Below are positions 2,981 to 49,308 of a DNA stretch of 64,000 nucleotides, piece by piece. How positions within the stretch are numbered: position 1 is the stretch's first letter; each line of letters starts with the position of its first letter. Source of the stretch: Muricea muricata (lineage: Eukaryota > Cnidaria > Anthozoa > Malacalcyonacea > Plexauridae). The position numbers were made by a program, and so were the translations under genes. The notes beneath the pieces are model-generated. The model saw only the letters and a list, made by a program, of their open reading frames with translations. It was not told where the DNA came from and ran no database searches. The stretch spans positions 4,078,330 to 4,142,329 of the forward strand of contig OY979728.1 in NCBI GenBank assembly GCA_963855995.1, in the 5' to 3' direction.

Positions 2981-5900
2981 ATGAAGAACCTTCAAATAAA
3001 ATTCCTATGGCAATTTCTGGCCACGATTTTCCTCTCCAGCCATGGCAAAGCAAAGAAGACTTGCAAGCCTGGTCAAGTGAACGATGTGTTTCAATATTTT
3101 CATGTGACAGCTCGTAGTAAGTGACACTGTAAAATATTTCGAAACTTTTTGCCTGTTAGAATTTTCTGCACGACTGTAACCGTATTGAAGTACGTAAGAG
3201 CAAATTACTTTCGTCCTGTTTCAAACATCGCTATAAATGTACAAATTGTAACCTAGCGAACACAATTTCTATGTCGATGCGAACTAAATTTTGATTGCAT
3301 ATTTTAAAGTACAATTAGCATACGGCATGAAATGCTATCGACTGATTTCTGAATATCGACTGAATGTAATTTTAATGTGCAGTGGTAACCAAATTTATAC
3401 AGTAATGAAAGCAAAATACAGTGAGGTAGTGATAAAATTTGGATTGCTATTTAAAAACATATTTAACAAGGAAAGTAATAAGTTACGTAGTAACTAAATT
3501 AAGGTCCTTGCAGGTGTGCTGGATAAACAATAGTCACTTGGGTTTAGTTTGATGAAAACACTATATGCAGCTTCTGTAACAAAGCCGCTTTTTGATGGGG
3601 AGGGGCTCATTTTTTGGCAATCCCCTGTGTGGCGAGAGGTACAGTAAATATTTAGATGTCCACAAAATAGCTAATTAAAACAAATCAAACTCGTCTTCAT
3701 AGTGTCTGGCATATACATGATGAGTTTGTATGGATATAATTGCCAACCCACCGAACGTATTTTTTTGTAAAATATTACAGATATTATGCATAAATCGTGG
3801 ATGATATTGCATGTCTGCTGGGAATATTACAATGATTGACCGGTCCGGACTAAAAAATGTTTATATTTCAGACGTAGCACAGTTGAATCAAAATATCATA
3901 GTTAAATCAAACGTGTTGGACTGGTTAGAATGTGGTGAACTCTGCTTGGATACTCGTTTTTGTGTCGGGTACAACTTTAAGAAAAGCTCTACAGATGGTC
4001 AAGTTAACTGTGAGCTAACCGACACTGGTAATCACATCTTTGAAAGAATCAGAACTGAAGACAGTGACTGGACATTTTACAGAACAGAAGGAAAACAAAT
4101 AGTAAGCGTATTTTCTAACTTAATAAAACGGTATTGTTTAACTTAGAACAAAATTATACTGCTTCGCGCCGCCTTGGACACAACGTGTTCAGATATACGT
4201 CGCAATAATTTTTAATAACTGCTTCAGTCTGAATGCGAAGAAGAGAATGAATGTCAAAATGGTGGGAAAATGGTGTGGGATCCAGTAAAGCCTTTCAAAT
4301 GTCAATGTCCAAAGAACTATCTTGGAGAACTTTGTGAAAAATGTGAGTAACTCAGTACTGTAAGCTAGACTCGTTCCAAACCTTTGCAGATCAATTCATC
4401 AATGCAGACAACCTAACGAACTATCTAAACTGTATAAAATGAACTTCGACGGATGGGTTTCTAGCGCATGCCTTCCTTCGTTGAATACTTAGAAAGGACA
4501 AAATACGGGAACTGTGGGTTGCCTTGTTGAAATATCATATAGTTTAGTGCCTTTCGTGGCTCAAATGGATAAATTGACTAAATTATCTTATTATCTCAGT
4601 TGACAATTGTTGAGGCACATCAAACCCCCTAAAATGAGCGAGGTGAATAGCTGGCCCTATACAAGTTATAAAAATGCCAAAAAAGAAACTATTAAACTAC
4701 TGAAGCTTGAACTTTGGTACACAGTCGTCAAAATTTTTCTTTTTTTCCCAGCGAATACTGTAAATGACATTGAAGTTAACATAACTAGTGACAATGGTGG
4801 AAGCCTAATGGTCGATACTGGTGAAAAGCACAATCTAAAAACCGACTGGTGGGAAACAGAGAGATTTGCCTTACCTGGAGATACAAAAGTTGTCACAATT
4901 AAAGGTGATAATGGGCCAGGGAGTCCGGGTGGAATACTTGCCTCTTTCAGTAATGGCGTGGTCACAGATGGTACGTGGCAATGTGCTGACATGAGCTCGT
5001 GTACTACCACTGAATGTGAGAATTCTGTAACATGGCAAGGTGCAAAAACATATGGTATAAACGGGGAAAACCCACCACCATGGAATACAAGACCATATAT
5101 CGACTCAACAGCAAAGTGGATATGGGTGGACAACCAATTTGCGGGAAGGGTTTGGTGCAAGAAGACGTTTGGTAAGTCGCGCATGTTGGTATGTTAATAG
5201 CGACACAAAATGCGACAATATTTCCTTTTGCAATGGATGATTGAAAGTCCAATAGCGCAAATATGTTTTAGTTTACATGTGTTATGCGTGCCAAAGACTT
5301 CGGCTTTACAACTTTAGAAATAAACTAGTTGTACGAACCTGTCTCACGTCGCACATTATTCTATTTCAAAGAAATAATTTTGTGTTTAATGGTGAAAATA
5401 CTGTAAATAATAATCCGTCATCCCTTGCGTGATCGTATATAGTTTAAGCTTTTGAAAGGATATTGAATTAGCTGTAATTTGGACGAAATTATACTTATTA
5501 TTATAAGGAAACATTTAAATGTATCTATACACTGTTTCAAGTAATGTTTGCTGACAAATGTTTTGTGTTTAAACCTCTACAGTAATTGCCAATTGTGGCA
5601 ATTAATTAACAACTTCGTGTACCTTAATTATATAGAATCTAATTTTTCATTATTTTAGTCAATATCTTAAGTGTTGTGTACCATTTCATTTTTTCGTTTC
5701 GCGGATCTTTTTTCTCGTTAATTGTTAATTGTGAAATGATTCTTAAAGAATCGATATTTTCAAACTATTATTGTCTCTCTGTAGTTGACAATTGTTCCTC
5801 CTCTCCGTGCTTATAAAACGGATCTTGCGCTGTCAATGGATCTATGTCAATGGATGTAGATAACCTGTATATATCCTTTCAATCTTTGAAAAATGACAGT

Positions 5901-6490
5901 TTTGCTTCCCTAAAGAGCAAAACATAAAAAAAATAGTATTTAAAGAAAAAAGACTTTGAAGCAACGAACTGCTCTTCCGCTAAAGTGCGGGAAAATCAAA
6001 TAACGCCTAGGCCTATTAGAGATCTGAGTAACTTGTCGGTTATTATTTCTACATGTTATTCTGCAAAACTGCTGTATCTTCTTAGAAAAATCACACATCT
6101 TGATTTCAGCTGAAATTACATTGAAATCAGTTTCAAATACGATCACCTACCAGGAAGCTACTTTGAACTGTAAATCAGATGGAAAAGAACTGTGCAGTTC
6201 TAAAGTGATATGCAAAGATGGTAAAACACCGTACGGAGGTATTAAGTCTGGTGACCACTGGGCGCCTGTAGCTGACAGTTCTAATGAGTGGATTCAAATT
6301 GGTAAGACAAAATGACGGATAACAAAAACGATATACACTAAAAATTTTAACTTTTATTTTTCTTTTGTTTGTAGGAAGTTCTCCACATCGTCCATGTATC
6401 CTTCACACTTCACTTGGCTCCAAACCTTCATGGGGATTGGGAAATGTCCGCAATAATTTTAAAGGACATCTTTTCTGTTGTAAAATTTAA
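2981..6490 (+). CDS. Gene A: secreted PAN-EGF-module G-module W protein (six coding exons)
   Basis: Exons: 2981-3116, 3872-4101, 4228-4342, 4752-5171, 6110-6301, 6375-6490, giving 402 aa with consistent GT/AG borders and phases (1,0,1,1,1). Exon 1 encodes a signal peptide (MKNLQIKFLWQFLATIFLSS). Exon 2 is a PAN/apple domain with four cysteines. Exon 3 is EGF-like but has only five cysteines: the usual third one in 'NGGxC' is Met. Exon 4 is 'module G' (about 140 aa, four Cys, ending IWVDN...RVWCKKTF), possibly a beta-sandwich; I cannot name it. The last two exons are 'module W' (WAPVADSSNEW...; ends HLFCCKI). A second EGF exon between modules G and W is broken (5785-5870) but can be skipped without a frame change. 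Extracellular, probably adhesive or matrix; the function is inference. ATTAAA at 6519 may be the poly(A) signal. Confidence 0.72.
5785..5870 (+). pseudogene. Broken EGF exon inside gene A
   Basis: After a polypyrimidine tract and TAG acceptor the sequence matches the intact EGF exon of psiD (37389-37499). An in-frame TAA arises at the 'cttataaaac' position, and the second half of the exon, including the last cysteines and the donor, is deleted. The flanking exons are both phase 1, so skipping leaves gene A open. Confidence 0.75.
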
Positions 6491-7040: not shown

Positions 7041-10000
7041 GAGGCTGTCTCCCTAAAAACCGACCACTAACGACGTTTTTTAAGTAGGAAAGAAACCCAA
7101 CTAAAACGTTTTAATCAGAAAGATTTAGGTTAGCAATTATCTGAATCGGGCTTACTTTTTTTAAACATGTTTTTATAGAGATATAGCAATCACTAACTAT
7201 CATGGCTTTTTAGGCCAAAATGGCGGCCATGAAACTTGATAACTCCTCCTGATTTTGGTAGCCGCTCGCGAAGGAATGCATCGTGCAATCGCAAATTTCG
7301 TAGGGATATTTCATAACAATTGGTGGTCCAAAACTATCTAAAGCACTGTCGGTTTAAATTTTATCTTTAAAAAATGGAAAAAAATGCATAGATGCAAGGC
7401 GAAGTCGAGTCCGCCTTGTCTGCGCAGCCAACACACTGCGTCAGCTAAAATTGATATTCTCAAATCTGGATTGAAATTTCCACAAATTGTCATCGTAGTT
7501 ATGTTATTTTACTGTCAATGGAAAAATATGGTAGTAATTTCATGTGGATCGATTTGCATTTCTTTTGCAGAACGCTGGTAATGTACATCATATTTGCAGA
7601 CGGTCCATCACACTTCGCTGAGCCTTCGCTACTGTTTAAGTAATATTTGACCGGGATTTTATCCAATATTTACTTAAAAAATAATAGATAACATGGGAAT
7701 AGCTGCTTCACACTTTTAGAAGTTGTTATATGCGGAAGATTTATTGATTCTAGCGCCTTGACAAGAACTTACCGGATCGTGCACCTCAAGATTTAATTAT
7801 TATTTGCATATATAAATAAAGTCTTGAATTTTGTAAATTTACACAAACATGGTTCAGATCAATCACGCACGTAGTTAGACATAGTTTTAACTATTTACAT
7901 GTTGTATCTTGTACTACCTTTCAAATGTATAGATCGCAGCCATAGTCTTTAAAGACAGGCGCAATAATTCGACTATCCTAAATGACTTCGATCGATGGGT
8001 TAAAATTAATCGATTGTAGATACCCAAAGATCGTAGTATACGCGTTTGGCTCTTGAGAAATCGTGACAAGCAATAATCTGTGAATTTTTTTCATTCGACT
8101 TATAATTTGTATTTAAAACAAAACGCTGTTGCAGGGAAAACCTCTGGGACACTAATCATTCATGGATATTTCGTGTTGCACGTTTATCATGTTGAAATTT
8201 TATTCTTTTGAAAGCCTGATATTTTATTCACGCGTACATTTTTGTTATTATAACTATTATTTTCACAGTAATATGGTACTTTCCATCGTTACTTCCACTG
8301 TTCATTGTTTTAACAGCTATAGTTTCCCTTGATTTCTGCGAAATTCCCTTGATTTCTCTGAAATTTAAATTTCAACACTTCCGGTCTGCCGGTAAACAAC
8401 ATGAATGTAATTAAGGAATCGCCAATTTCTATCACCGGGCGTTACAGATATTTACATTGGCGTTTGTTTTAATAATATTACGATATATAGAGTGAATTTA
8501 GTTTCATCTCTGATAAAACGTATTGCTTCAGCGATGTCTTTGTCATCTTGTTTTATCGGAGAAATTAAAGGAAACTCCAGCTGCGGCGAGAAATTACTTC
8601 GTCTGACAGAATGTCAGTGATATACGACATCATCTAGAAGTTAACCATCTTTCATCTGAACCTCTAACAGAAGTTGAGTTAATCCTTTTGAGGTCAGGAG
8701 TAGGCCATCTTAGTCAAGGGCAAGTAGATACTATGTGGATATGTCATAGAAATAATAGATATCTTTTATTTCTATGGGATATGTACGAAGCACCGACTCG
8801 CTCTTGGAAAACAATGGAGACCGTCTCGCCTTTCCTGCCACTCCCCCAAACATGACGGCAAGAGAACCGGCCTAAAAACGCGTGATACGATTGGCGTAAA
8901 GATGTGTCAAAATATAAAACAGTTGTATCAAGTACATGTCCCTGTTGGATCACGTAAGGAAATTATATATCTATCAGTTTCTTTGAAGGGTTCTCTTGGG
9001 ACTGTTTTCCAGTTACACGTTTATCATACGTTCGTACACACGCGGGGAATTGTTAATGTTTCTACTTTTTTAACATTATTTTAACGTATAAGTTAACAAA
9101 TGTATATTAAAACATGCGGGAAAATATGCTCTTTTCATTTATTTCCTTAGTTTTGTCAGAGGTAACATGCAAATGAATTTAGGCTTTCACGTGTGTGTAT
9201 GTGCGTATGAAAACAAATGACTGGAAAACAGCCCTCATGCAGTTCTGTACACCGAGGAACGATTATATCGCTCCACCAGTCGTTTGGGTTTGGCAACCTC
9301 GCTGATCATGATATCATTGAAGTAAACCTTCCTTTATTCATGTTCAACAATATTTGTTAAATGCAGAAAAGACTATAAGCAGACCATTAAGTCCAGCAGC
9401 GGGCTTGATCTGACCACGCCTCCTGAACCGACAAAAAATGATGATTTGACTGAGAGGTACTATTAACACGCGGGTATTAATAATCATTTAAATTTTTGGT
9501 ATTTTAGCATATATTAGGTTTGTAAACATATTTCAATTCACATATGTGTGCGATGTGTAATAAACGATAATGATGATGATGACGGTGGTAACGGTGGTGA
9601 TGGTGATACGTACGATTGTACGTACACCTTTAATCATTAACGTTGTGAGTCATGCACTATCATTTTCTTACTTGCAGAGTAGCTTTTGGTATAGCTACAT
9701 TGAAACTGAAAGAAACTTTAGAATCTACACCATTGGCAACCCCGAAGAGAGCCCCCCGGTTAAGCACGATAAAAGAGTGGAATCCAAACGATGATGCACA
9801 TGAAGAAGAAGACAATTTTCTTGACAATGTGATTTAGCTCTTGAGGTGCACGATACGGTGTCTGCGTTCTTGTCAAGGCGCTAGAATCAATAAATCTTCC
9901 ACATATATCAACTTCAAAAAGTGTGAAGCAGTTATTCATATGCTATCTATTATTTTTTAAGTAAATATTGGATAAAATCCCGGTCAAATATTACTTAAAC

Positions 10001-10588
10001 AGTAGCGAAGGCTCAGCGAAATGTCATTGACCGGCAAATATGATGTACATTGCCAGCGTTCTGCACAAGAAATGCAAATCGATCCACATGAAATAACATA
10101 CCATATTTTTCTATTGACAGTAAAATAACATAACTACGATGACAATTTGTGGAAATTTCAATCCAGATTTGAGAATATCAATTTTAGCTGACGCAGTGTG
10201 TTGGCTGCGCAAACAAGGCGGCCTCGACTTCGCCTTGCATCTATGCATTTTTTCCCATTTTTTAAGATAAAATTTAAACCGACAGTGTTTTAGATAGTTT
10301 TGGACCACCTATTGCTATGAAATATCCCTACGAATTTGCGATTGCACGATGCATTCCTTCGCGAGCAGCTACCAAAATCAGGAGGAATTATCAAGTTTCA
10401 TGGCCGCCATTTTGGCCTAAAAAGCCTTGATAGTTAGTGATTGCTATATCCCTATAAAAACAACATGTTTAAAAAAAGTAAGCCCGATTCAAGTAATTGC
10501 TAATCTAAATCTTCCTGGTTAAAACGTTTCAGGTGGGTTTCTTTCCTACTTAAAAAAACGATTGGTCTGTTTTTAGGGAGACAGCCTC
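7041..10588. mobile_element. 3.5-kb transposon with about 750-bp inverted arms, TTAA-flanked
   Basis: Left arm 7041-7791 and right arm 9840-10588 are near-identical reverse complements, starting GAGGCTGTCTCCCTAAAAA. TTAA is on both sides (7037-7040 and 10589-10592). The empty site is preserved at about 15573-15580 after gene B ('gtcttaataattataaagg'). TTAA duplication is the hallmark of piggyBac-type elements, but the palindromic target also permits a TA duplication with termini AGAGGC/GCCTCT. No transposase is recognisable in the 2-kb core. One spliced-looking terminal exon (9678-9837) and GAT/GGT triplet runs (9568-9606) are present. It interrupts the 3' flank of gene A. Confidence 0.8.
9678..9837 (+). 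other. Candidate terminal coding exon inside the TTAA element
   Basis: A CAG acceptor after 'tttcttacttg' opens an in-frame stretch of 52 codons ending in TAG at 9837. It is rich in Lys/Pro/Thr and then acidic (EEEDN) at the end, and sits just inside the right arm. I do not recognise the product. It may be the last exon of a lost transposase or a captured host exon; equally it may be chance. Confidence 0.25.
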
Positions 10589-11328: not shown

Positions 11329-14300
11329 ATGCAAGGAAAAGACTCGCAAGGACTATACGCCAATGTGGCTCAACATCTTCAGTCCAAGATATTAAAGCTT
11401 TTATGTCTGTTCATTTGTCTGATGGTCATTTTCAAGGTATCGCAACCGCAAGAAATTATTTCCAAGTCAGAAATAATCTTTTGCCAATCCTCGCTACAAG
11501 GTTAGTATATACTACTGAAGCTGAAGATATAAGGACACCATATAAACTATATTTGTTTAAACGTGATAGATCGCTTTCATTCCCAAAAATGCGCTGTAAT
11601 TTCGACAACTCAATATCTATCGCACATTTTGCATAAGTTTAAACCACGTAGGGCTGTGAGGCTTAGTTTGGTCTCACTTTCTTGAACTTTCTTGCCGAAT
11701 CTAGCACCCTCTGCACAATATGGAGGACATGCCTGAAGCTCCGGCTAAAGAGCTGTTGACACAAACATATAATCGTTTAGATGATAATTATTTGAACACT
11801 ATATGCATGACTTCTTTCTAAACTTGGTCTTTCAACGCGTTGCTTTTAAGGTTTTCGATTTGACGTCCCAGTCCTTGAAGTGCGCAATGTTTCCTCACAA
11901 AGCGGATGTATTGAAGAGTGCAAAGCAAATCCATGTTGCAGGTCTATGAACTACGAACGTGCTACCTCAGCCAATCACTCCAACAAATGTGAATTCTTGC
12001 ATCATTTCTTGGATAATACGTCTTTCGTTTTGGAGATGAATGCTTCGTTTGAGTACCTCTTTTTGGACACACCACTGAAGGTCATTGCCAAGACTCGATT
12101 TAACGTTTCTCTGCGAGAATTCTATGCATATTATAAAATCATGTCTTTAATTGACGTATAGCAGCTTGATTTATTTTTGACATAATTTCGTAAGGGGAAA
12201 TTCACGAGGGTGGAAACGACGGGGAGGAATTTTATCATCACCTTCAATAGTCTCTGCTATTAGGTCTCTGCTATTACTTGACCTGTACTCTTATTGTTGA
12301 ATTTTCCACTTGTGCTGTGAGGGTTCGAGAATAACGAATGGCGTACAGTAGTGACACGTTTCCTTTTTTTCTAGGAATATAATGCCAGTTGCATTCCTAA
12401 AGAACCCAAGAAATTCGAGAATGAAACTAGAGATAATATAAGTAAGGGTTGGTTGTTGTTAAAAGGTCCTCTCGCGCCATAACTCTTCATCTATCGCCGT
12501 GTTACTGGGCTATGACTTTGTACCGGGTCAAGTATGTGTTCCAGGACGCAAAAAGTTAAATTGTCCTGCATGTGATGATTGTCCTGAACGGGAATCCAGA
12601 GCAAAATGCCCACCGAACATACGACCTGTCAAAGAATGATCCCACGAAAAGCTCGTATGCATGCATCTTCTCGTATATGTCGACTGACTCTATTTTTCTT
12701 TTCTATGATGTGACCGCAATCCTTTAAATCAAACGCCTACATAGTTTGGAAAGGGGTTTAACCGCTCCCCCCCCCACCCCTTTATCACCCCTTTTTAAAA
12801 ACATTTTATCCCCCAACCCCAATAAAAAAATCAACAAAAATGGGCGAAAATTTTTTCGTTAAATTAATCGGTCAAAATGACACACCAAACAATTACATCC
12901 AACTGAAATTAATTTTACTTTCATCCTTTTTAAATTTTTTTAAAAAAAAACACTAACGCCTCGCTTGTTGCTAATATGTGTGAGAGCTTTGTGACTCATC
13001 CTCCCCTTTTAAATGAACCCACCCCTTTTTAGTAGCCTTCAATTTTTAAAGAAAAATATTTACCCCCCCCCCTTCTTCTATTTTTTCGGAAAGTTTATCC
13101 CTCGCCTTAAAAAAAGGTGGATCGAACTATGGGCCCCCTAAAATGAATGAGGTGAATAGCTAGCCCTCTAAAAGTTATATAAATACCAGAAAAGAAACTA
13201 TTAAACAACTATATTTGAAGCTTGAACTTGGTACACAATTTTTCTTTTTTCTAAGCAAATGCTTTAAATGACATCGAAGCTAACATAACTATTGACGATC
13301 GTGGAAGTCTAAATATCGATACTGGTGAAAAACACAATCTAAAAACCGGCTGGCAGAAAACAGAGAGATTTGCCTTAGCCGGAGGTACAAAAGTTGTCAC
13401 AATTAAAGCTGATAATCCAGGGAATGTGGGTGGTATACTTGCCTCTTTCAGTAATGGCGTGGTCACAGATGGTACGTGGAAATGTGCTGACATGAGCTCG
13501 TGTACTACTACAGATTGTGAGAATTCTGTAACATGGCAAGGTGCAAAAACATATGGTATAAACGGGGAAAAACCGCTACCATGGAATAAAAAGCTAAACG
13601 ATATTGACTCAACAGCTCAGTGGATATGGGTGGACAGCCGTTCAGCTGAAAGGGTCTGGTGCAAGAAGACGTTTGGTAAGTCGCACATGTTGGTATCTCA
13701 ATAACGACATAAAATGCCACAATATTTCCGTTTGCATGGGATGATTGAAAGTCCAAATTCAATCTGCACTATTACAATTGTTAGAACTTTAGAAGGAAAC
13801 ATTTGAAGGTATATATTATACTTTTGCAAGTAATGTTTGCTGACAAATGTGTTTTTTTTCCAATTGTGGTAATTAATTAACAACTTCGTGCACCTTTATT
13901 ATATACATTCTAATTTTTCATTACTTTATTCAGTTCCTTAACTGTTGTGTACCATTTAATTTATACCTTGATTATTAAACATAAGTTATAGTTTCGCCTA
14001 TTCTTTTTCCAGAAGTTATTGCGAAATTAATGCTTAAAAGATCGATAATTTTAAACTTTTATTATCCGTGCTTAAATAACGGGTCATGTGTTGTCAATGG
14101 ATCAACAGGATATCTTTGTACATGTCGACCTGGATATTCAGGCATTCGTTATGAAAGTAAGAAGTATATATGGATAACTTGTATACATCCTTTCGAAAGT
14201 ATTTAAAGAAAAAAAGACTTTGCAGCAACGAACTGCTCTTCCGCTTAAGTACAGGAAAATCAAATAACGCTAAACGCTTTTAGAGATCTTAGTTACTTAT

Positions 14301-14751
14301 TATCTATACATGACATTCTACAAAACTGTAGTATCTTCTTGAGAAATTCACATATCTTGATTTCAGGTGAAATTACATTAGAATCACTTGCAAATACAAT
14401 CACTTACCAGGAAGCTACTTCGAGCTGTAAATCAGATGGAAAAGAACTGTGCAGTTCTAAAATGATATGCAAAGATGGTAAAACACCTTACGAAGGTATT
14501 AAGTCTGGTGACCACTGGGCGCCTGTAGCTGACAGTTTTAATGAGTGGATTCAAATCGGTAAGAAAAACATGAATGATAACAAAAACGATACACACTAAT
14601 AATTTTGACGACTTTTATTTTTCTTTTGTTTGTAGGAAGTTTTCCACATCGTCCATGTATCCTTCACACTTCAATTGCCTCAAAACCTTCATGGGGATTG
14701 GAAAATGTCCGCAAAGGTTTTAAAGGACATCTTTTCTGTTGCAAAATTTAA
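11329..14751 (+). CDS. Gene B: chimeric anchor-PAN-module G-module W protein
   Basis: Exons: 11329-11500, 11851-12080, 12375-12441, 13256-13675, 14367-14558, 14636-14751, giving 398 aa with phases 1,0,1,1,1. Exon 1 has a hydrophilic N-terminus of about 24 aa and then a hydrophobic run (LKLLCLFICLMVIF), so it is a signal anchor (type II membrane) or a long signal peptide. Exon 2 is a PAN domain ([13 protein letters not shown]...). Exon 3 is a 22-codon linker with one Cys. Exon 4 is module G with the 'KLND' loop variant shared with gene E. The last two exons are module W, nearly identical to genes A and C. The EGF exon between G and W is decayed (14062-14156). The gene joins an E-type front to an A-type back. 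A different reading frame across exon 1 (11280-11636) is longer but is not conserved and encodes no signal. Confidence 0.68.
14062..14156 (+). pseudogene. Decayed EGF exon inside gene B
   Basis: It matches the 3' four-fifths of the EGF exon of psiD. The acceptor and the first cysteine region are deleted, and the last cysteine is Tyr ('cgttatgaaag'). Gene C carries the same deletion, showing that the two share this segment by descent or conversion. Confidence 0.75.
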
Positions 14752-15830: not shown

Positions 15831-17036
15831 TAATAATAATCTCCTTTCACCTTAATAACTTAAGTACAATGTTGAGTGGTGAACAAGGATGTCTTTTAAA
15901 GCAGTTCTAACTGTACCAACAATTTACTGGATGAGGGGATTCCAAAACAAATAGCAGGAAATTAATAACATGTGCATGAGAACGTTCATACTTGTTTGAT
16001 CGATTGAAAAGGTCTAAGGACAATTTTTTCCGAAATTGAGATCAAAACTTAGTCGATAATTGAAGTTGCCCATTCAAATAATTCAATTTAATAATTCCGT
16101 TTTCTGAAGATGTCTTAAAGTACATGCTCAAAAGTACACAAAATAAGAATATTCATTAAGATGTACCGATGGCATGGGGAGTTCGATAAAAATACACCCG
16201 TTATACCTGTTTTCAAAATCGCGTGACTTTATACGAAAACGCTCAAATGTCATTTCGTGTCACATTTACCGCTAAAAATAGCGAACGTAAACAAGAGAGA
16301 TTTCAAATCATATTTTGTCTTCACAGACGAATATTGAACCAATGCAAAGTAGATGTACAAATAATTATAAACAGCAAACTATCAGCACCGAAACTTATAT
16401 CGTGATAAGAATTTATTTACCATAACTGAAATAATATAACAATTTTGCTGCTATAATCTGGCGGGAAATACGCAGTTTAATTTGAGCGTAAATGATGATA
16501 TTGTAAAAGTATCGCCGAAAATTTGTTGAAGTATATTCTATATATACATATAAGCGTTCGGCGGTCACGAAATATACACGCGATTAGTCGATTACAGGTC
16601 TGTATACATGTGCTGAGTTCAATAAGGTGGATTCCGGGGGGGGGTGTTGGAACTTTGTTGATAATATAAAATCAACCACAGGTTGACATGACGCAAATAA
16701 CTTGCACGCGGATTAGATACAATATTGCTCCTTTAACTATCTTTACCATCGGTAGAAATATCAGCCAGACACTTTGTGTATTACTGAAATATGGCAGTTT
16801 TGATTGAAACGATGTTAAGGTCCAAAGATAACATTCGTGCAACGTATTCAAGCGACAGTACTAAATGTACACCCCCCGGAGTTTACACTATGACTGACAG
16901 TCTGATGTAAATTTTCGCCACTCATCACAATGCTGCAAAGTTTCTTTCTGAAACTTTGCACTAACAATTACATTTGCCTCATCATTTGTCATATTTGCCT
17001 CATAGTGCCTGACCACTCTCTATTATCTCTCTTCAG

Positions 17037-34098: not shown

Positions 34099-34281
34099 GT
34101 GGACTACACGAGACTATCGGAACGTTTTTGCGATAAATACCGACAGTATGTGCCCGTGTTTCGTTTTTACGTGGGCCGTTCCTTCGATATTAATAGGATT
34201 TGGCGCATGAAGTCGCTTGAGTATATGCAGAATGAGATGGTTCCCGTTTCAAAACAGATGCCAGCAGAAGATGCAATGTAA
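34099..34281 (+). other. Unrecognised open stretch after the MITE
   Basis: Sixty codons, rich in Arg/Tyr and open without stops, lie at the start of the sequence shared with 24420-24605. In copy I the same stretch has an early TAG and frame changes. It may be part of an old transposon ORF; I cannot name it. Confidence 0.2.
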
Positions 34282-34704
34282 TTTATATTTTGTTACTTTG
34301 CACTTTACAATATTAATACGTTTTTACCCCTAATCTGATACCCTAATCTTAAGAACTACAAGACAACGTGTCGACGTGTTTCTATTGAACTCGATGCCAA
34401 TTCTTACAGCCGGAGCATATTCGAATATAAAAAGTTCCATATTTAAAATAATTTGGCCATATTTAAATAATATGACGTTTGTTGATCCGATCATTCGCAT
34501 TTTGCTGTAATTTTTATCGTTTTGACTGATGCATGTTTCGCTTTTAAAGTTACTATAGTATATAGATCTATAGTAATATATCGTAGAAAATATGTCCCGT
34601 CACATGGCAGTCGTTTATAAACACGCTATAACATCCATAATTTTTCTACGTTCTATATCACTATTGGCTATTGCGAATGTACAAGTTATCTGAGCCTTTG
34701 GCTT

Positions 34705-34825
34705 TAGACTCGCAAGCACTCGAAAGTTTCGAGTCGCGAATGCTTGTGAGTGAGACGAAATTCGAGTACTCGCGAGTAGCGAGTCGGAACGCGCACTCGC
34801 GAGTACGCGCTACGCGCGAGTGGAA
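34705..34825. repeat. ACTCGCGAGT palindrome cluster (copy II)
   Basis: It matches 25025-25175 but lacks an internal 28-bp part. The CpG-rich palindromic cores remain. Confidence 0.65.
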
Positions 34826-35741
34826 GTACCCTCACTTACCGCTGGTACTGTATTTCCTAGCATACACGGTCCGGATCACGATTTATGCATAAGGTCTATT
34901 CCGAGCAAGTTTCGTTGATATTGCATGTCTGCTGGGAATAGAGTATTAAAATTATTGACCAGTCCGGACTAAAAAATGTTTATATTTCAGACGTAGCACG
35001 ATTGAATGAAAATATCATAGTTGAATCAAACGTGTTGGACTGGTTGGAATGTGGTGAACTCTGCTTGGATACTTGTTTTGTGTCGGGTACAACTTCAAGA
35101 AAAGCTCTACAGTGGTGATCGTATCTTTGAAAGAATCAGCACTGAAGACAATGACTGGACATTTTACAGAACAGAAGGGAAACAAATAGTAAGCGTATTT
35201 TCTAACTTAATAAAAGGATATTTTCTAACTTAGAACAAAATTATACTGCTTCGCCCCGCTCTGGATAAAACGTGTACAGATATACGTCGCAATAATTTTT
35301 AATAACTGTTTCAGTCTGAATGCGAAGAAGAGAATGAATGTCAAAAATATCTTGGAAAACTTTGTGAAAAATGTGAGTAATTCAGTACTGTAAGCTAGAC
35401 TCAAGCATAGCTTGTTGCAGTTGTTCCAAAACTCTGCAGATCAATTCATCAATGCAGACAACCTAACGAACTATCTAAACTGTATAAAATGAACTTCGAC
35501 GGATGGGTTTCTAGCGCATGCCTTCCTTCGTTGAATAGTTAGAAAGGACAAAATACGGGCACTGTAGGTTGCCTTGTTGAAATATCATATAGTTTAGTGC
35601 AGTTTGTGCATCAAATTGATAAATTGACTGAATTATTTTATTATCTCAGTAGACAATTGTTGAGGCACAAAGTTTAATGATTCTATGAAAACAGTATATA
35701 CTGTACAATTTCATCCAGTCGAACAGTAATCTAGTGCAAAA

Positions 35742-36050
35742 CTATGATGCTGAGGATCCACGAACATGGAAGTCTATTTGTTTGTCTTGTAACATGTGTC
35801 GTAATTTGTCTTGCCCTATATTGTGTTGTTGTTAGCTGTTAGGGAATACTTCTTCTTTCAATTTTCTAATCTGCTTCTAATTCTATATGTTTGTCTGTAC
35901 TATATATATGTATACAAGGGCCGCTATAATTGGCGAAAGCTGTTGCGTTACCCAACCATTTTGTCTTATTTGTATGTTTTGTTTTATGTAAATGTTGTTT
36001 TATGTTTAAATGGTAAATCTTAATAAATAGATAATTAAATAAATAAATAA
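35742..36050 (+). mobile_element. 3' end of a retroelement with TAAA-type tail
   Basis: About 309 bp are present here but absent at the same place in gene C (26130-26136, 'acaaaacgcgg'). The insert ends 'taaataaataaataaa', a tetranucleotide tail typical of 3' ends of LINE-like elements, and it lies in the intron before module G. The short A-rich overlap (aaaa) is the only target-duplication candidate. Confidence 0.65.
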
Positions 36051-39000
36051 AACGCGGACCGCACGTACAACTTGTCAAGAATGATCCCACGAATAGCTCG
36101 CATGTGCATCTTCTCGCATTTATCGACTGACTGTAGTTTTTATTTTATGATGTGGCAGCAATTCTTTGAATCAAACGCCCCCTAAAATGAACGAGGTGAA
36201 TAGCTGGCCTTATGCAAGTTATAAAAATGCCAGAAAAGAAACTAATAAACAACTGAAGCTTGAACTTTGGTACACACTTGTCGAATTTTTTCTTTTTTTT
36301 TCAAGCTAATGCTGTAATTGACATCGAAGCTTAGATAACTATTGACAATGGTGGAAGCCTAATGGTCGATACTGGTGAAAAGCACAATCTAGAAACCGAG
36401 TGGTGGGAAACAGAGAGATTTGCCTTACCCGGAGATACAAAAGTTGTCACAATTAAAGGTGATAATCCAGGGGGTGAGGGAGGAATACTTGCCTCTTTCA
36501 GTAATGGCGTGGTCACAGATGGTACCTGGCAATGTGCTGACATGAGCTCGTGTACTACAACAGATTGTGAGAATTCTGTAGCATGGCAAGGTGCAACAAC
36601 ATATGGTATGAACACAAACCATCCAACATGGTATACAAGACCATATATCGACTCAACAGCTCAGTGGATATGGGTGGACAACCAATTTGCGGGAAGGGTT
36701 TGGTGCAAGAAGACGTTTGGCAAGTCGCACATGTTGTTATGTTAATAGCGACACAAAATGCGACAGTATTTCATTTTGCATGGGAAGATTGAAAGTCCAA
36801 ATTTAGCCTGCAGTATAAATATGTTTTAGTTATTCACAAAGCGAAGCCTATAGTGCTATGCGTGGCGTCAGCTTTACATACAACCCTAGAAATAAACTAG
36901 AAGTGGAAAACCGGTCTCACATTGCACTTTCCTCTGTTCTAAAGGAATAATTCCGTATTTATATTGTGGAAATTATCAGTCATCCCTTGCTCTCTCATAA
37001 TCTACAGTTCAAGCTTTTGAAGGGACAACCTTTATCGAATTAGCTGTAGTTTGGACAATATTATATTAATTATGATAAAGAAATATTTAAATGTACATAT
37101 ACGTTTGCAAGTAATGTTTGCTGACAAATCTTTTGTGTTTATACTTCCAGAATAATTGACAAATGTTGCAATTAATAAACAACATCGTGCACCTTAATTA
37201 TATACAATCTAATTTTTCATTATTTTAGTCAATATCTTAAGTGTTGTGTACCATTTAATTTTTACGTTTCGCGGATCTTTTTTCCGGAAGTTAGTTGCGA
37301 AATGAATTGCTATAAAATCGATGTTTTCAAACTTTTATTTGCTACAGCAGGCATCCTGACCGCTCTAAAAATTATTGTCTCTCTGCAGTTGACAGTTGTT
37401 CCTGCTCTCCGTGTTTAAATAATGGATCATGTGTTGTCAATGGATCTACAGGATATCTTTGTACATGTCTACCTGGATATTCAGGCATTCGTTGTGAAAG
37501 TAAGAAATATAGATAACCTGTATATATCCTTTCCATCTTTGAAAAAATGCCAGTTTCTCCTACAAAAATATCGAGTTATTATTCATACACGATATTCTAC
37601 AAAACTGCAGTACCTTCGTCAGAAATTCACATATCTTGATTTCAGGTGAAATTACATTGAAATCAGTTGCAAATACGACCACCTACCAGGAAGCTACTTC
37701 GAGCTGTAAATCAGATGGAAAAGAACTGTGTAGTTCTAAAGTGATATGCAAAGATGGTAAAACACCTTATGGAGGTATTAAGTCTGGTGACCACTGGGCG
37801 CCTGTGGCTGACAGTTCTAATCAGTGGATTCAAATCGGTAAGAAAAACATGAATGATAAAAAATACGATCTACACTAAAAATTTTAACTTTTATTTTTCT
37901 TTTGTTTGTAGGAAATTTTCCACATTCTCCTTGTATCTTTCACACTGCAATGGGCTACAAACCTCAATGGGGCTTGGAAAATGTCCAGAAAGGTTTTAAA
38001 GGACACCTTTTCTGTTGCAAAATCTAAGAAAAAGACATTTCTTAAGACAAGTATCATTAAAATATTGTAACGTTTGCACTGCATAAATAGACGTTAGAAA
38101 CCACGAGCTCCTTCTGTACGAAAATTAGAGTACATTTACAGTGAACGCGTAATAAACAACAAACTTGTTTTTGTAACCGTAATATTATGTAAATATTTTA
38201 ACCACTGTGTATCTGTAGCTGATAGTTGTGTAGAAAATGTGGAGTTCAAGTAAATATATGGTATTTAGCAGTTCTGGACGGCCGCAAGGCCCTGGGGACT
38301 AGAATGGGCTTTTATCGCTTGCAATTACACTATTGCGCAAACATCCCACCGTCCTGAGATAAAAAAATACAACTGGGAATCAGGCTTGGCTTCTACCACG
38401 TTTTGAGTCTTAATAATTATAAAGGTTTGCTAACTTGCCAATTTTACTGGAGTGATCAACAGAACAATATTTTGAAAGGATAAAAAATGTTAAAAGCAGT
38501 TTTAAACTTACTAAATAATTACTTATATGGAAAAAATATTTAGTGTAACCTTGGACACGACACAATTAAAGATGGACAACAATAATGCTAATTACTTAGC
38601 AACATGTGTTTTGTTGCTTGTGTCTGTTGCGATGTGACATAGGCGGATTTTTAGATTTCCGTTGGGGGGGGGCTAGGGGGAGGTAATATCTGGGGGAAAT
38701 CATAAAGGTCAAAGAAGTCTATTTGACTAAAATTGTGAGGCCATCGTATTTATTTAGCAAAATAATATAAAATTGGAAATATCAATTATCAAGTAGATTG
38801 TATTCTGTATTACTTTGTGTTTTGCAATTGTATTATGATTATTTACAAGGAACAATTAACATTCCAAAACATGTGACATGTCCATTTTTCAACTTGATAA
38901 GTTTGATTATTGTCCAAATTCCAACGCCCAACAGTACTGATCTGAGAAACTCGAAGACAACCTGAAGCTGAAGCCTGATTAAGTTACATATATTAATTAA

Positions 39001-39135: not shown

Positions 39136-41365
39136 TTACACTTTCACTCTCCTGTCTGCCTTTGACGCCCACGAATTAATGAGACCATCAATGTCCAGTT
39201 GCGGTACCAAGTCTTTGTTGAGGGCAATGCAAAGAAGAGGTCCCCGAGTCTGCTTGGGGTCGGCCTTTGATCGCAACTCAGAACAGACTCTGTTCATTGC
39301 AGAAAAGCTACGCTCAGCAGTTGCCGTAGTTGTCGCAATGGCGTTCTTTAGGTTTATTAGCTTCATTAAGTTAGCACATCTCTTTTCACTAATCGGTAGC
39401 CCCAGTCGAAAATCGATTTTGGCCCTCGACAATTCCAGTTTGAGCGCGGATCTGTTAATGTCCAAACAGTCAAAATGCTCTACAAGATAACCCAAAGTAT
39501 CGATATCCAAGTAGCATGGATGCATCCAAACCATTGAAAGCTTTCATCTTTTGGATGTTCTTGCTGTCGAACCGGATTCGGAACTCTTCTTCAATCATGC
39601 TTTTCATGTAAGATTTGAGATTGGAAATTTGGTTATTGATTGAATATGCAGCACTGTTTGATGAAGTTGATCTATAGTTTGGTGTATTGGCATGGTGAGC
39701 GTAAGTTCAAGGGGTACGCCAATCTTGTCACAATACTCGTTTACCTTTGCTTGTATTTGATCATCGTCTATTACGGAAACTGATTCGCGGGTCCGTTCTG
39801 CCTCATACTGAACATCTTTCCAGGTGACGCTTTGACACTGCAGCTCTTTGGACAGGAAGAACATTTCAGCAAGGTATATACTGAGTGTGACAAGCCCAAT
39901 AATCTGCTTTGCCGTTGTTAACCTACGGTAAAAGCCTCCCGCTTGCTCAACATGTTTTGGGTCATGTCCTCTCAGGTTTTGAGTAACTCTGATCAAAGTT
40001 TCTAAAATAACGCGAGGTTTGTCGGTTATAAACTCCACTAACTCAAACTTTCAGCCCCAACGTACGTCGATCTGCTGAGCGGGAAGATGTTCAATTTGTA
40101 AATGAGGGTAAAGCTCGCTGTATACAGTATGATAGACTTCTCTGAATTTTCCATGATTCAACATTGTATGGAGGGAGTTGTGTGTAGAGCGGTGTATCAA
40201 GCGCAAGATTGGATCCTTTGATTAGATCGTTCACTAAAAGATTAATACGATGAGCAGTGCAATGTATGTATATTAACCAGTAAAAATAATCTCAATGCGA
40301 CAGTTCTGTAGCACCAGAAAATTCACCTGCCACGACACTTGCACCATCCGCTCCTAGACATATCACCATTGAGCCCCCAGAGGATATGATTATACAATTA
40401 ATACGTTCATTTACACATTCTTTGATTGCCTGGCCATCGAACTGTTCTAGCTTCCGAGGGTACACAAATCTTTCCACAACATTTCCTGCTGAATATCTTA
40501 CAGCCAAAGCTAACTCTTCTCGTTTTGCAGTGTCTTTGCTTTCACCAATAAGTGCTGAAAACATGCTGACATCTTTGATCTGAGAATAAATAATCTGACG
40601 AGTATATCATTGACACTTGTTTTACTGGTACATGTCTAGTCAATGCCTCTTGTCCTGGTAAACTTTTGGTGGAACTGTCTGAACGAGGGATTTGTTTGCA
40701 GGTGGAGGCGAATGAAGGAAACCGATTTACCGCTCAGGGATTCGTCTGTTTCATCGTGAGCCCTCATTGGAACTTCGTTAGTTGCAAACTAGAGGATATA
40801 TTTGAACAGGCATCTAAGATATTCTCCGTTTTTACGCCTTATTTCTTCCCTTTCAGGACATATTCCTTCGATTATGTTCTTTTCTTTTCCTTCTTGGATC
40901 TGCATGTTCTAGCTCTATCCACCTGGCAAAACTGTTTCTATGAGGCTCAGTTCTTTCATGCTGCTGAAATTCTTTACTGCTGTCGAGGGCATTTGCCAGT
41001 TAGTGTATCCTGTTTGAGTGAATGTCAGAGCAGCAGATGAGGCACTCGTTTGTGAAAAAAACTAGGACAACAGTAGCAAAAAGCGGCGTCTTTTACAACA
41101 TCATATTCGAAATAAAAGAATTGTTGATACCATGATACGTTGAAGCTCTTAGCTTTACTTCACTTGGGATCACGTACTGGGCTGGGAAGTCTAAGAGTTT
41201 CGGCTGCCTTGGTCCTGCATGCGTATCAGTATCCTCGGTGTTAGATGGTTCGCTTCTGTTTCGTTTCGTGAAAAAAGACCCCAATGTCGCTTGCCTTTTC
41301 TTTAGAGGCGATTTATATATCGTCATAGCAATCATCCGTCTGTCCTTTACTGTGAGCATATTCAT
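39136..41365 (-). pseudogene. hAT transposase of the ZMYM1/TTF-finger type, decayed
   Basis: Minus-strand pieces in order: 41365-41093 gives the N-terminal region ('KRQATLGSFFTKR', 'KLLDFPAQYVIPS'). A short stretch near 41075 reads like the start of a TTF-type zinc finger ('KDAAFCYCC'). 40564-40292 gives a central catalytic-core segment ('FSALIGESKDTAKREELA'). 40038-39604 gives a further domain. 39534-39136 gives the C-terminal hAT dimerisation region ('TTTATAERSFSAMNRVCSE'). Stops and frameshifts separate these pieces, so no functional protein is expected. Confidence 0.8.
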
Positions 41366-42237: not shown

Positions 42238-42690
42238 TACAAGAACATGATAGTAAGTCCTGTTAGTTTTGGTTTCGACTGGGGTAAATAATAAACTATA
42301 GTTGTGTAGGCTAAATGAATGTCGATGTTTGTAATTATTAATGAACTCAAGGTGCATATTGCGTTATTCGGTTTTTGCAGTTGTTAGTTACTAGGCCTAA
42401 TTCTTTTCTTTTGCACAATAACGAACTCGAATTCTAAAAGTTGTATAGAATAACGGGGCAATTTTACTGTAAACGTCCTGGCAGAATTCCCCCTCCCCCC
42501 GAAATTCGGCTTGTTAGTTTTGGCCTAAGACGAAATGACAATCTTCTAATTTACTTAATATTTTCCCAGTAATATTATCAAATCTTCATACTCTTTCTCA
42601 ATTTCTGTTGAAAATCCCAAACTATCAAGAACGGGTTGTCGAAATAAATTTAGCATGTCACTACAAAGTACTGAAAAGTCAAACAAGAAC

Positions 42691-42776
42691 GCCAGTTCAT
42701 TGTCACATGTTGAATTTGTCTGCCAGATATGGTGAAGGGGGGTTGGACACTAGTTATGAAATTGAATCGAGATAAG
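42691..42776 (+). pseudogene. Fibrinogen exon relic upstream of gene E
   Basis: It resembles gene E 48417-48503 ('ttgtcacatgttgaatttgt', 'ggttggacactagttatgaa') and ends at a GTGAAC donor. One extra G in the glycine run shifts the frame. Confidence 0.75.
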
Positions 42777-44193: not shown

Positions 44194-47100
44194 ATGGAAG
44201 GAAGAAACTCGCAAGAAGCTTGCCACGGACTATATTCCAATGTCGCTCAAAAGCTTCAGTTCATGACATCGAGACTTCTCTGTCTGTTGATTTTTCTGAT
44301 AGTCATGTTCAAGATATCACAACCGGAAGAAATTTTTTCCATGTCAGAAATAATCTTTTGCCAATCCTCGCTACAAGGTTAGTATATACTACTGAAGCTG
44401 AAGATATAAGGACGCCATATAAAGTATGTTTTTTGATATTTGATAGATCGCTTTCATTCCGAAAAATCACTCTCCCACATTGAAACTCTATCTTTTTTGC
44501 ATAAGTATAAGCTACGTAGGTCTGTGGGGCTTAGTTTGGTTTAATTTTCGTCTGGTTTTCCAGCTGAGAACGATTAACAATGGCAAGTCGAGGTAGTTTA
44601 TCACTGAGAAAAAATTACATTTGCGTCATAGTGGAAGTAGAGTTATCATCCACTATATCCGTTTTCAGATTCTATCCTGTATAAAAATAATTAAACTTTC
44701 TTTCTTAATCCAGCATCCCCAGGGCAATATGGAGGACTGGCTAGAAACCTCAGCTAAAGAGCTTTTGACATAAACATATAATCGTTTAGACGATAATTAT
44801 AAAAATAACACCATATGCATGACTTCTTGCTAAACTCAGTCCTTCAACGCGTTGCCTTTCAGGTTTTCGATTCGACGTGCCAGTCCTTGAAGTGCGCAAA
44901 GTTTCTTCACAAAGCGAATGTATTGAAGAGTGCAAAGCAAATCCATGCTGCAGGTCTATGAACTACGAACGTGCTACCTCAGCCAATCACTCCAACAAAT
45001 GTGAATTCTTGCATCATTTCTTGGATAATACGTCCTTCATTTTGGAGATCAATGCTTCGTTTGAGTACCTCTTTTTGGACACACCACTGAAGGTCATTGC
45101 GAAGACTCGATTTAATTTTTCACTGCGAGAATTCTATGCATATTGTAAAATCATGTCTTTAATTTACGTATAGTAGCTTGATTTATTTTTGACATAATTT
45201 CGTGAGGGGAAATTCACGAGGGTGGAAACGACGGGGAGGTGACGATTTTATCATCACCTTTAAAAAGTCAGACTTCTTTTGCAGGATATTTAGGTCTCTG
45301 CTATTACTTGACCTGTTCTTATTGTCGAATTTCCCACTTGTGCAGTGAGGGTTCGAGAATAATGAATGGCCTGCAGTAGTGACACGCTTCCTTTTTTCTA
45401 GGAGTATAATGCCAGTTGCATTTCTGAAGAACCCAAGAAACTTGAGAATGAAACCAGGATTAATATAAGTAAGGGTTGGTTGTTGTTAAAAGGTTCTCTC
45501 GCGCCATAACTCTTCATCTATCGCCGTGTTACTGGGCTATGACTTTGTACCAGGTCAAGTGTGTGTTCCAGGACGAAAAAGTTAAATTGTACTGCATGTG
45601 ATGATTGTCCTGAACCGGAATCCAGTGCAAAATGCCAACCGAGCATACGACCTGTCAAAGAATGATCCCGCGAAAAGCTAGCATGCATGCATCTTCTCGT
45701 ATATTGACTGACTCTATTTTTGTTTTTCTTATGTGACAGCAATCCTTTAAATCAAACGCCTACATAGTTTGGAAAGGGGTTTAACCCCCCCCCCCCCCTT
45801 ATCACCCCTTTTTTAAAACATTTTATCCCCCAGCCGTTTGGAAAAATATATGGTGTAAAATATCCGACAAAAATTCAACAAAAATGCGCGAAAATTTTCT
45901 CGTTAAATTAATCGGTCAAAATGACGCACCAAACATATATGAGTGCCATAATTTGCGTGAGAGCATTTTGACTCATCCCCCCCTTTTAAATGAACCCACC
46001 CCTTGTTAGTGCACTTCAATTTTTTTAAAGAAAAATATTTACCCCCCCCCCCTTCTTCCATTTTTCGTAAATTTACTTCCCGCCTTAAAGGGGGGGTCGA
46101 ACTATGGGCGCTCTGAAATAAGTGAGGTTAATAGCTAGCCCTATACAAGTTATAAATGCCAGAGAAGAAACTATTAAACAACTATATTTGAAGCTCGAAC
46201 TTTGGTACACAGTTGTCAAAATTTTTCTCTTTTTTCCAAGCTAATGCTGTAAATGACATCGAAGCTTTCATAACTATTGACAATAATGGAAGCCTAATGG
46301 TCGATACTGGTGAAAAGCACGATCTAAAAACCGGCTGGACGGAAACAGAGAGATTTGCCTTACCCGGAGCTACAAAAGTTGTCACAATTAAAGGTGATAA
46401 TAGGCTAGGGGGTGTGGGAGGTATACTTGCCTCTTTCAGCAATGGCGTGTTCACAGATGGTACGTGGAAATGTGCTGACATGAGCTCGTGTACTACTACT
46501 GATTGTGAGAATTCTGTAACATGGCAAGGTGCAAAAACATATGGTATAAACGGGGAAAAGCCATCACCATGGAATAGAAAGCTAAATGATATCGACTCAA
46601 CAGCTCAGTGGATATGGGTGGACTATAGTAATGCGGAAATGGTTTGGTGCAAGAAGACGTTTAGTAAGTCGAACATGTTGGTATGTTAAAAACGACATAA
46701 AATACGACAGTATCTCCTTTTGCATGGGATGACTTACAGTTCAAATTTAATCCGAAGTACAAAATTTTTTTAGTTACACACAAAGCGAAGCCTATAGTGT
46801 TATGCGTGGCAAGGTTTTCGTCTTTACATCCTTAGAAATAAACTAGCAGGGCAAAACCGCGTTCTCACATCGCACTTTCCTCCGTATTTATACGGTGGCA
46901 ATTATCTGTCATCCCTTGCTCTCTCATAATCTACAGTTTAAGCTTTTGAAAGGACAACCTTTATTGAATTATCTGTAGTTTGGAGGAAATTGTACTAGTT
47001 ATCAGAAGGAAATATTTAAATGTACATACACGTTTGCAAGCAATATTTGCTGACAAATGTTTTGTGTTTACACTTCTAGAATATTAATTGCTAATTGTGG

Positions 47101-49308
47101 TAATTAATTAACAACTTCGTGCACTTTAATCATATACAATCTATTTTTTCACCAATTTAGTCAATACATTTTTCTCGAAGTTGGGCCAAATTAATGCTTA
47201 AAAGATTGACAATTTAAACTTTTATCAGATACAGCAGGCACCCTGACCGTTCTCTATTATCTCTCTTCAGTTACCATTTGTTCGTCCTCTCCGTGCTTAA
47301 ATAACGGATCATGCGTTGTCCATGGATCTACAGGATATCTTTGTACATGTCTACCTGGATATTCAGGCGCTCGTTGTGAAAGTAAGAAACATATATACAG
47401 TCATCTTTTAAATAGTTAAAATTATAAAACATTCCTTGAAAAATCACGAAAAATCGTCCCAGAGACCAACTGCATTAGGTTGAGCTTACCAACCCTAGCC
47501 GAGGGGCAAAGACTACCGGTGCAATTTGCGATTTGTTAAACTGACCACAATTTTGTTGTTTTAGCGCACATTTCTCCCTCTCTATGTCAAAATGGAGGGA
47601 CATGTAATGTTGATGAATCTGGAAAACATATTTGTTCTTGCCTACCTGGATATTTCGGCAATTATTGCGAAAGTAAGACATAATATTCTTACACCTTTAA
47701 AAGTATAAAGAGTTCCTTAAAACATCAAAAGTATTGTTGCAGAGACCCATATCAATTATTTACCATGGTTAAGCAAACTAACGCTAGTCGTACGGCAGGG
47801 ACTGCCGGTGCATTTCTGAATTAAACTGTCCGCAATTTTGTTGTTTTCGCGCACATTTGTTCTCCCTCTCCATGTCAAACGGGAAGGACATGTAATGTTA
47901 ATGAATCTGGGGAATATATTTGTTCTTGTCTACAAGGTACTTCCGGGGCTCGGTGTGAACGTAAGAAATTATTCAGATACATTCTAGATAAATACGTAAC
48001 ATCCTTCAAAATATAATTTTACATGCAATAGGAGTTCCGTCTAATTTAATGAAGTTGCTACGGATTTTAAAAACTTGTTCAATTATAATGTTACAGCACT
48101 GACATCTGCAACCGATTTGTATGTTTTAGAAACCTGCACTTCCTGCAAAGAAATTCTTAACAATAATAGGTAATAAGAGCTGATAATACGTATCAACAGT
48201 AAAAACAAGGGAAGGGGGAGTGAAATGACTTAACAGTCTTTAAAGGTTGCTGAATCAAAAATACGAATTTTGCTGCATCATTGCTGGTAATTTACTTTAA
48301 AGCGTGGCATCAGTAACGAATGGGAGGTTCTGAACAAGGCATAATAAATCTGTCTTTTGTTTAGATCGGCAACCAATGGAATTTACCACCTCAAGTTAAA
48401 CGAGAACTCAGACATGTATCCAGTTTATTGTCATATGTCGAATTTGTCTGCCAAATGTGGTGGAGGGGGTTGGACACTAGTCATGAAATTGGGTGGAGAT
48501 GAGGTGAAGCATGTCATATATATTAAGCAAGAAAAGCTTTAATGCAATTCAGAAAAGATTTAAATTAACCGATATCATTATTTATATCAATTGCTATTAA
48601 TTTATTTATATTGGACTGCATGCGTTTACATTGAACCATGAATATTAAGAGTGAAGAAAACTCGACACGGCGAACGTGACATTTTCAGCGCGAATTTAAA
48701 TCACACTGACGAAAAATGCCAACAGCTAGCGCAGTTTTGGAAAAACATGAAATTGTCTGATACCAAAGTTCTTCTGTGTTGGTTTGTAGACAAGATTTGA
48801 ATACGATTCTGCATTTTGGACAAACAAGGAAACATGGAATGTTAATGAAGGTCTGAATGGTTTGACAGAGAATGAAGCAAAGCTAGCTTCGTATCACAAC
48901 ACTCCCTTCACCAAACTATGCCTGGGAATGACACGAAATGACGTCACAAATTGGATACTTGTCGACTACACCGCAACTTCGCTGTACAGTGTGATCGCAG
49001 ACGGAAGTTACCAGGAGACAAACTTGGGGAGAGCAGAATGGATGTCACTCCTAAATGACGCCGAATTACAATCTGCTTGCAACAAGGAAGGTTTTAATGC
49101 TCGGTGCTCAGAACCCATGCGAATGTCGCGAATTGGTATTTTAGGTGATAATCAAGGACAAAAAGATGGTGATTGTTCATGGTGCAATACAGTCATCGGT
49201 TTTGGCTTTCAAATGAAGGATTCGAAATGGTCTAGTGGGAACGTCTATGATAAATACGGCGAAACCGTTAAAAAGCTAGAGACATTTGGATATATTTTCG
49301 TTCAGTGA
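44194..49308 (+). CDS. Gene E: anchor-PAN-module G-EGF-EGF-fibrinogen-like protein
   Basis: Exons: 44194-44377, 44863-45092, 45402-45468, 46241-46663, 47271-47381, 47565-47672, 48130-48169, 48365-48503, 48790-49308, giving 606 aa with all phases agreeing. The N-terminus has a hydrophobic run ([15 protein letters not shown]); starting at Met24 would give a classical signal peptide. PAN ([13 protein letters not shown]), a Cys-bearing linker and module G ('KLND' variant) follow. EGF 1 has six Cys; EGF 2 has lost its first Cys through a 3-bp deletion. The fibrinogen-like domain starts [16 protein letters not shown], has [11 protein letters not shown] and ends with a '[12 protein letters not shown]' segment characteristic of the anthozoan matrix-protein-5-like group. 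A third EGF (47850-47960) has no AG acceptor and is assumed skipped. AATAAA lies at 49363. Probably a lectin-like or matrix protein; ligand unknown. Confidence 0.75.
47850..47960 (+). other. Third EGF exon of gene E with lost acceptor
   Basis: 111 bp, open, with all six cysteines and a good GTAAG donor, but the 3' splice AG has become CG ('gttttcg' where EGF 2 has 'gttttag'). The psiB' counterpart at 17574 shows the same CG, so the loss predates their split. Inclusion would add 37 aa without frame change (643 aa). Confidence 0.65.

Follow-up and report, generated by a model that had tools for sequence, protein, structure and literature searches.

We analyzed a window of 64,000 nucleotides, meaning the whole stretch C13:4078330-4142329 (contig OY979728.1) from the cnidarian Muricea muricata, whose genome was available as 453 Mb in 74 contigs. 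We consider it likely that the window holds part of a tandem gene family encoding extracellular proteins, which is arranged around a shared exon, here called G, and has been rearranged by nonallelic homologous recombination and gene conversion. Each unit of this family would combine a 5′ cassette (front 1 or front 2), the G exon, and a 3′ cassette (either W or EGF-EGF-GGGWT). The nearest relative of a unit changes along its length, which indicates that recombination between copies was at least partly responsible for the combinations of fronts and backs.

Mapping of the modules by tblastn over 264 contiguous kb, which run past the window end and contain no N, placed five units with a front and a G exon (A to E) within 2981-49308, all on one strand. 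The array continues past the window, with at least 10 units in the same orientation from 2.9 to 136 kb (133 kb). Repeats of 300 nucleotides occur around G in five copies (61-90% of the reference copy) and around W in four (83-93%), both sets far above chance. Architecture, open frames, intron phases, and mosaic breakpoints were computed, the gene models being predicted frames with GT-AG introns from the genome sequence alone. All four pairs of front and back occur as such open predicted spliced frames, in eight units: front 1 with W in A, C, and U8; front 2 with W in B and U7; front 2 with EGF/GGGWT in E and U9; and front 1 with EGF/GGGWT in U6, beyond the window (Table 1). An earlier sequence-only reading of the window had proposed six related loci. 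We find its modules in the order that it gave, with A, B, C, and E each yielding a single open protein, and D, which it took for a pseudogene, is broken by front deletions plus a frameshift, a stop in G, and a GC donor. Five units with a front and G are thus present, but the sixth locus, psiB′, is not separate and forms the decayed far end of B; likewise, the back module that had been called fibrinogen shrinks to the short GGGWT start of that domain, the only part recognized.

Front 1 consists of a signal peptide, a PAN-like exon (F1), and an EGF; front 2 consists of a short hydrophobic start, a PAN exon (F2b), and a linker. F2b reaches 26.4 and 28.2 bits against PAN_1 (cut-off, 21.4), and the PAN-like exon of front 1 scores under the PAN cut-off. 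W corresponds to Pfam DUF7495 (78.5 bits; cut-off, 27; profile positions 9-108 of 109); it has no match in NCBIfam, and our literature search turned up no paper on DUF7495 (PF24325). The GGGWT segment scores above the NF040941 threshold (42.8 bits; cut-off, 30), but a complete fibrinogen C-terminal domain is not recognized, Pfam Fibrinogen_C reaching 20.1 bits (cut-off, 22) over residues 5-88 of 232. The best match of this back among solved structures, intelectin-1 (E 7e-5), spans residues 5-64 only, and the structure model of the FbgC exon is unusable (pLDDT, 34). G is an unnamed domain with a predicted all-beta fold. By sequence, the best matches to solved structures have E values of 0.69 for G and 0.22 for W, and a search of viral contigs yielded no confirmed relative of either module.

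As the sequence-only reading held, module borders lie in phase 1—on both sides of G, before W, before the EGFs, and before the GGGWT part—and introns within cassettes are in phase 0 (F1-EGF1, F2b-F2c, and FbgN-FbgC) or phase 2 (FbgA-FbgN). Because both sides of G are in phase 1, swaps beside G keep the frame. All six copies of the third EGF exon lack an AG at the border (CG in five), so that this exon is probably skipped; it is odd that the copies in E, B, U6, U9, and U10 are still open, that is, without decay. In the first exon of front 2, the longest open frame is misleading, and it is the ATG frame that splices in phase to F2b. This frame encodes a run of 12 hydrophobic residues flanked by basic residues, with a 19-residue Kyte-Doolittle mean of 2.07-2.27 in B, E, U7, and U9, compared to a maximum of 0.88-1.45 anywhere in A, C, U8, and U6. 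Judged by this hydrophobicity, front 2 may be membrane anchored rather than secreted; a run of 12 residues is short for a membrane span, so that an anchor and a signal peptide are both possible.

Switches of nearest relative were found in several units. Within and before G, C is closest to front-1 units; over 26783-27382, it is 0.91-0.98 identical to B compared to 0.69-0.91 to D (sliding identity). The maximum chi-square comparison of C, B, and U6 (128 sites) places the break 24-29 bp past the G exon, with a match to B of 0.20 on the left and 0.96 on the right. The G exon of U10 is U8-like left of 133075 and U6-like right of it, and A tracks U6/U10 to ~5.35 kb and is nearer to the W-type units from ~5.6 kb. 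In U9, five consecutive sites at the 5′ edge of EGFa are W-type, as is another at +42, and the rest of the 24 diagnostic sites are GGGWT-type (reference groups, D, U7, and U8 versus E, U6, U10, and the second back of B, excluding the EGFa remnants of A, B, and C). The intron before G in U7 also shifts, at low identity, from type-2 sequence toward type 1. Across the array, 131 of 360 triples reached the floor of a 400-permutation maximum chi-square screen, and 87 of these pass Bonferroni correction with 20,000 permutations; since triples overlap, the 87 passes do not stand for 87 events. The pairwise homoplasy index (PHI) gives P values of 0.001 for G and 0.006 for FbgA-FbgC. A further exchange point is indicated between the signal exon and F1: between C/D and A/U6/U8, the 200 bp upstream are 0.49-0.51 identical and the signal exons 0.72-0.76, whereas F1 is 0.93-0.97 identical among all five.

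The array thus contains mosaic copies with abrupt changes of nearest relative, the mark of arrays reshaped by nonallelic homologous recombination. The breakpoint in C and the triple tests uphold the earlier suggestion that module combinations come from recombination between copies, the neighbors B and C included. Swaps beside G do keep the frame, but the joins are not confined to exon borders, some switches lying within exons (U10 G and U9 EGFa), and while the mosaic units are recombination products, part of the combinations stems from loss in two-ended units (B, U7, and the deletion in C). Switches inside exons, as in U10 G and at the U9 EGFa edge, point to homologous recombination or conversion instead of classical exon shuffling. 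We rejected the latter as the sole cause: phase is kept, but the joins lie in sequence that is alike on both sides, and some of them are within exons.

Several results weigh against a history of recombination or narrow its reach. PHI does not reach significance for W1-W2 (P = 0.084; 30 informative sites), F2b-F2c (P = 0.199; 11 sites), or F1-EGF1 (P = 0.809; 4 sites), and the U7 intron switch is weak (~0.77 versus 0.62, in one window). Selection gives no backing to the frame chosen for the first exon of front 2 (dN/dS of 0.92 versus 1.00 and 1.31 in the other frames). The joined transcripts are predictions, and function is reached by inference. Finally, loss from two-ended units accounts for part of the pattern. 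Both backs stand in line in B and U7, and C equals B-type sequence minus ~3.1 kb, with a GGGWT tail remaining; together, these show that such loss is real and acts alongside recombination.

Under the mechanism that we propose, G, its flanking introns, and EGFa, which are alike among units, would serve as sites of misaligned pairing. Exchange at the phase-1 edges of G would then swap a whole front or back in frame and so generate all four pairs, after which deletion and decay would strip one of two backs (C and B) or whole units (D and U10). We infer that the units are transcribed into soluble or tethered products, and our best guess, reaching beyond the sequence features themselves, is that these are extracellular recognition or adhesion proteins in which G forms a constant binding core that carries one of two heads. 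A more specific scheme seems unlikely to us: a germline mix-and-match system in which the constant G is presented in soluble form (front 1) or on the membrane (front 2) with a W or GGGWT head and two upstream/signal cassettes, and in which neighbors recombine at the phase-1 edges of G into new in-frame combinations, so that individuals would differ in their recognition set (symbiont, pathogen, or self/nonself). A tenable minority view is that the proteins are structural parts of an extracellular, egg, or skeletal matrix and that the array reflects tolerated copy number change instead of selected diversity. The available text of PMC4890752 reports domain shuffling and EGF proteins among the skeletal proteins of corals, and none of the modules tested shows diversifying selection, which we reject because the intervals of pN minus pS (nonsynonymous minus synonymous differences) include zero or fall below it in all seven. 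The interval lies under zero, as expected of purifying selection, only for F2b and W1; G, FbgC, FbgN, W2, and F1 are indistinguishable from neutral.

The architecture itself might be explained without exchange in two ways. It is rather unlikely that W and EGF-GGGWT serve as alternative terminal exons within a single gene, although some units might work this way alongside recombination: the U7 frame stays open in a W form (402 amino acids) and, with W skipped, in a GGGWT form (566 amino acids) as well. However, W is absent between G and the EGFs in E, U6, and U9; no complete GGGWT back was mapped for A, C, D, or U8 ahead of the unit that follows; and the second back of B is broken. It is improbable that differential loss alone, from an ancestral unit with both backs (W, then EGF-GGGWT) and with fronts that are old paralogs, produced the combinations without any swapping. 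B and U7 with their two backs, and the GGGWT tail behind W in C, ~3.1 kb having gone relative to B, speak for loss. So does EGFa, of which each of the six W-type units (A, B, C, D, U7, and U8) has a copy between G and W, damaged in A, B, and C, one cysteine short in U7, without a donor in U8, and undamaged only in D, which is otherwise broken; its presence in all six suggests that W probably joined a gene that already had EGF. Yet exchange between copies is required by the abrupt changes of nearest relative in C, U10 G, and A, and by F1 exons that are alike despite their differing 5′ cassettes. Long tandem paralogs are a known assembly problem, but collapsed or misjoined copies are a very improbable source of the array and its mosaics, given 264 kb without any N inside a 13-Mb contig and copies that are distinguishable in most segments.

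Table 1. Units of the array and features within them, in window numbering (also used past the window end)
Feature	Position	Strand	Composition or basis
Unit A, front 1+G+W	2981-6490	+	tblastn map and spliced frame, 402 amino acids
A exons	signal 2981-3116, F1 (PAN-like) 3872-4101, EGF1 4228-4342, G 4752-5171, W1 6110-6301, W2 6375-6490		
A, EGFa remnant	5793-5843	+	with stop, between G and W
Unit B, front 2+G+W	11329-14751	+	398 amino acids (W end)
B exons	F2a 11329-11500, F2b (PAN) 11851-12080, F2c 12375-12441, G 13256-13675, W1 14367-14558, W2 14636-14751		
B, EGFa remnant	14066-14155	+	
B, second, decayed back (psiB′)	17037-19007	+	stop, frameshift, lost donor
B second back exons	EGFa 17037-17147, EGFb 17288-17398, FbgA 17833-17869, FbgN 18054-18192, FbgC 18505-19007		donor lost in FbgA, stop in FbgN, frameshift in FbgC
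Unit C, front 1+G+W	21571-27896	+	second signal/upstream type, 400 amino acids
C exons	signal 21571-21706, F1 25322-25551, EGF1 25655-25769, G 26383-26799, W1 27518-27709, W2 27784-27896		
C, recombination breakpoint	26823-26828	n/a	sliding identity and maximum chi-square scan
C, EGFa remnant	27195-27278	+	
C, leftover GGGWT-back tail	28711-29066	+	counterpart of B 15836-18952 absent between W and tail
Unit D, broken front 1+G+W	31651-38027	+	
D exons	signal 31651-31786, F1 34991-35188, EGF1 35315-35372, G 36306-36719, EGFa 37389-37499, W1 37646-37837, W2 37912-38027		
Unit E, front 2+G+EGFs+GGGWT back	44194-49308	+	606 amino acids
E exons	F2a 44194-44377, F2b 44863-45092, F2c 45402-45468, G 46241-46663, EGFa 47271-47381, EGFb 47565-47672		
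E back exons	FbgA 48130-48169, FbgN 48365-48503, FbgC 48790-49308		
E, third EGF exon	47849-47959	+	open, without AG acceptor
U6, front 1+GGGWT	66.8-73.8 kb		601 amino acids
U7, front 2+W then GGGWT	77.0-85.7 kb		402 amino acids, W form
U8, front 1+W	101.0-108.7 kb		405 amino acids
U9, front 2+GGGWT	121.3-126.3 kb		599 amino acids
U10, front 1 minus first exon, GGGWT	131.8-136.0 kb		without signal exon and F1 acceptor
Reverse copy	205-209 kb	-	order signal, F1, EGF1, EGFa, G; behind G only GGGWT tail found

Genome wide, G is encoded in at least 28 places (at least 14 on C13, 8 on C11, 3 on C3, and 1 each on C1, C6, and C7), and we examined the surroundings of 19 of these 28 matches: the ten array units, the reverse unit at 205-209 kb, L005, L029, L034, and five on C11. 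L005 (C13, 4.62 Mb) combines front 2 with G, EGFs, and the beginning of GGGWT; L029 (C1) contains G, EGFa, and W, with no front within 3.7 kb upstream; and in L034 (C3), front 2 and G are accompanied by an EGFa that carries a stop. The four pieces of C11 that were examined hold five G copies, with none of the other modules found there at E <0.01, which shows that G is also part of other genes. Next to the C11 copies of G lies a divergent G-like frame (25% identity; L030:624-1061, minus strand).

Further remnants of FbgN were noted. Copies of a different FbgN lie ~1.4-2.1 kb upstream of the front-2 units E, U7, and U9 and of the C3 copy (42659-42776, ~74.9 kb, ~119.4 kb, and L034:963-1074), as if an older GGGWT gene preceded each, and similar ones occur at 82.8 kb and at L029:9833-9932. 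FbgN-like remnants also follow the signal exons of C and D at a distance of ~0.3 kb (22017-22100 and 32121-32183), with another beside a signal exon near 216 kb. The window further contains a non-long-terminal-repeat (non-LTR) retrotransposon with an open frame of 1106 amino acids (57847-61167, plus strand; RVT_1, E 4.6e-23; zf-RVT, E 1.8e-7) and a hAT-transposase-like frame (39136-39540, minus strand) that falls just under the cut-off (Dimer_Tnp_hAT, E 3e-4). An insert of ~3.5 kb with long inverted arms (7041-10586) splits the shared 3′ flank of W in A; behind it, the flank resumes with a 6-bp overlap, as after transposon insertion. An Rfam search of the window gave no match.

The array shows breakpoints fine enough to see whole protein ends exchanged in frame, so that one can directly test how recombination between neighbors gives rise to new domain combinations, and it supplies candidates for variable surface or secreted proteins. 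The titles and abstract openings of the literature that we searched describe no such family, a search that was incomplete and thus leaves room for an existing description. One of the nearest likenesses, beside the FREP-type families treated below, is with Acropora, in which expansion of gene families via recurrent nonallelic homologous recombination, beside transposons, is proposed in the available text of PMC12314368; there, too, tandem clusters are reshaped by nonallelic recombination. The Acropora families named in that text are TPR-CHAT, NACHT, glycosyl transferase, P450, and others, whereas here the ends of domain proteins are exchanged at a fine scale, and searching the same text gave no hit for fibrinogen, EGF, lectin, or exon.

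Fibrinogen-related proteins (FREPs) are, according to the portions available of PMC12074976 and PMC12549020, secreted multidomain proteins with a fibrinogen-like part, belong to an expanded family, and in snails reportedly vary through both gene conversion and point mutation. In the array, by contrast, only the GGGWT start of that domain is recognized, and the front is made of PAN, EGF, and G. Snail FREPs carry immunoglobulin superfamily (IgSF) domains. The Sp185/333 genes of the sea urchin form a tight cluster of similar genes, for which duplication and conversion are proposed to make diversity, but as far as the available text of PMC3091723 goes, they differ in being genes of <2 kb with two exons and microsatellite-bounded flanks, and their proteins are unrelated to those of the array. 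Coral skeletal matrix proteins, as described in the parts available of PMC4890752 and PMC7579821, are also modular and extracellular, some with EGF and some in tandem, a likeness by description only. Finally, the accessible text of PMC10236652 reports pervasive tandem duplication and EGF-rich families in coral genomes and calls gene conversion very rare; with its clear exchange between copies, the array described here would, if its source counts as a coral, be a clear exception among coral tandem duplicates.

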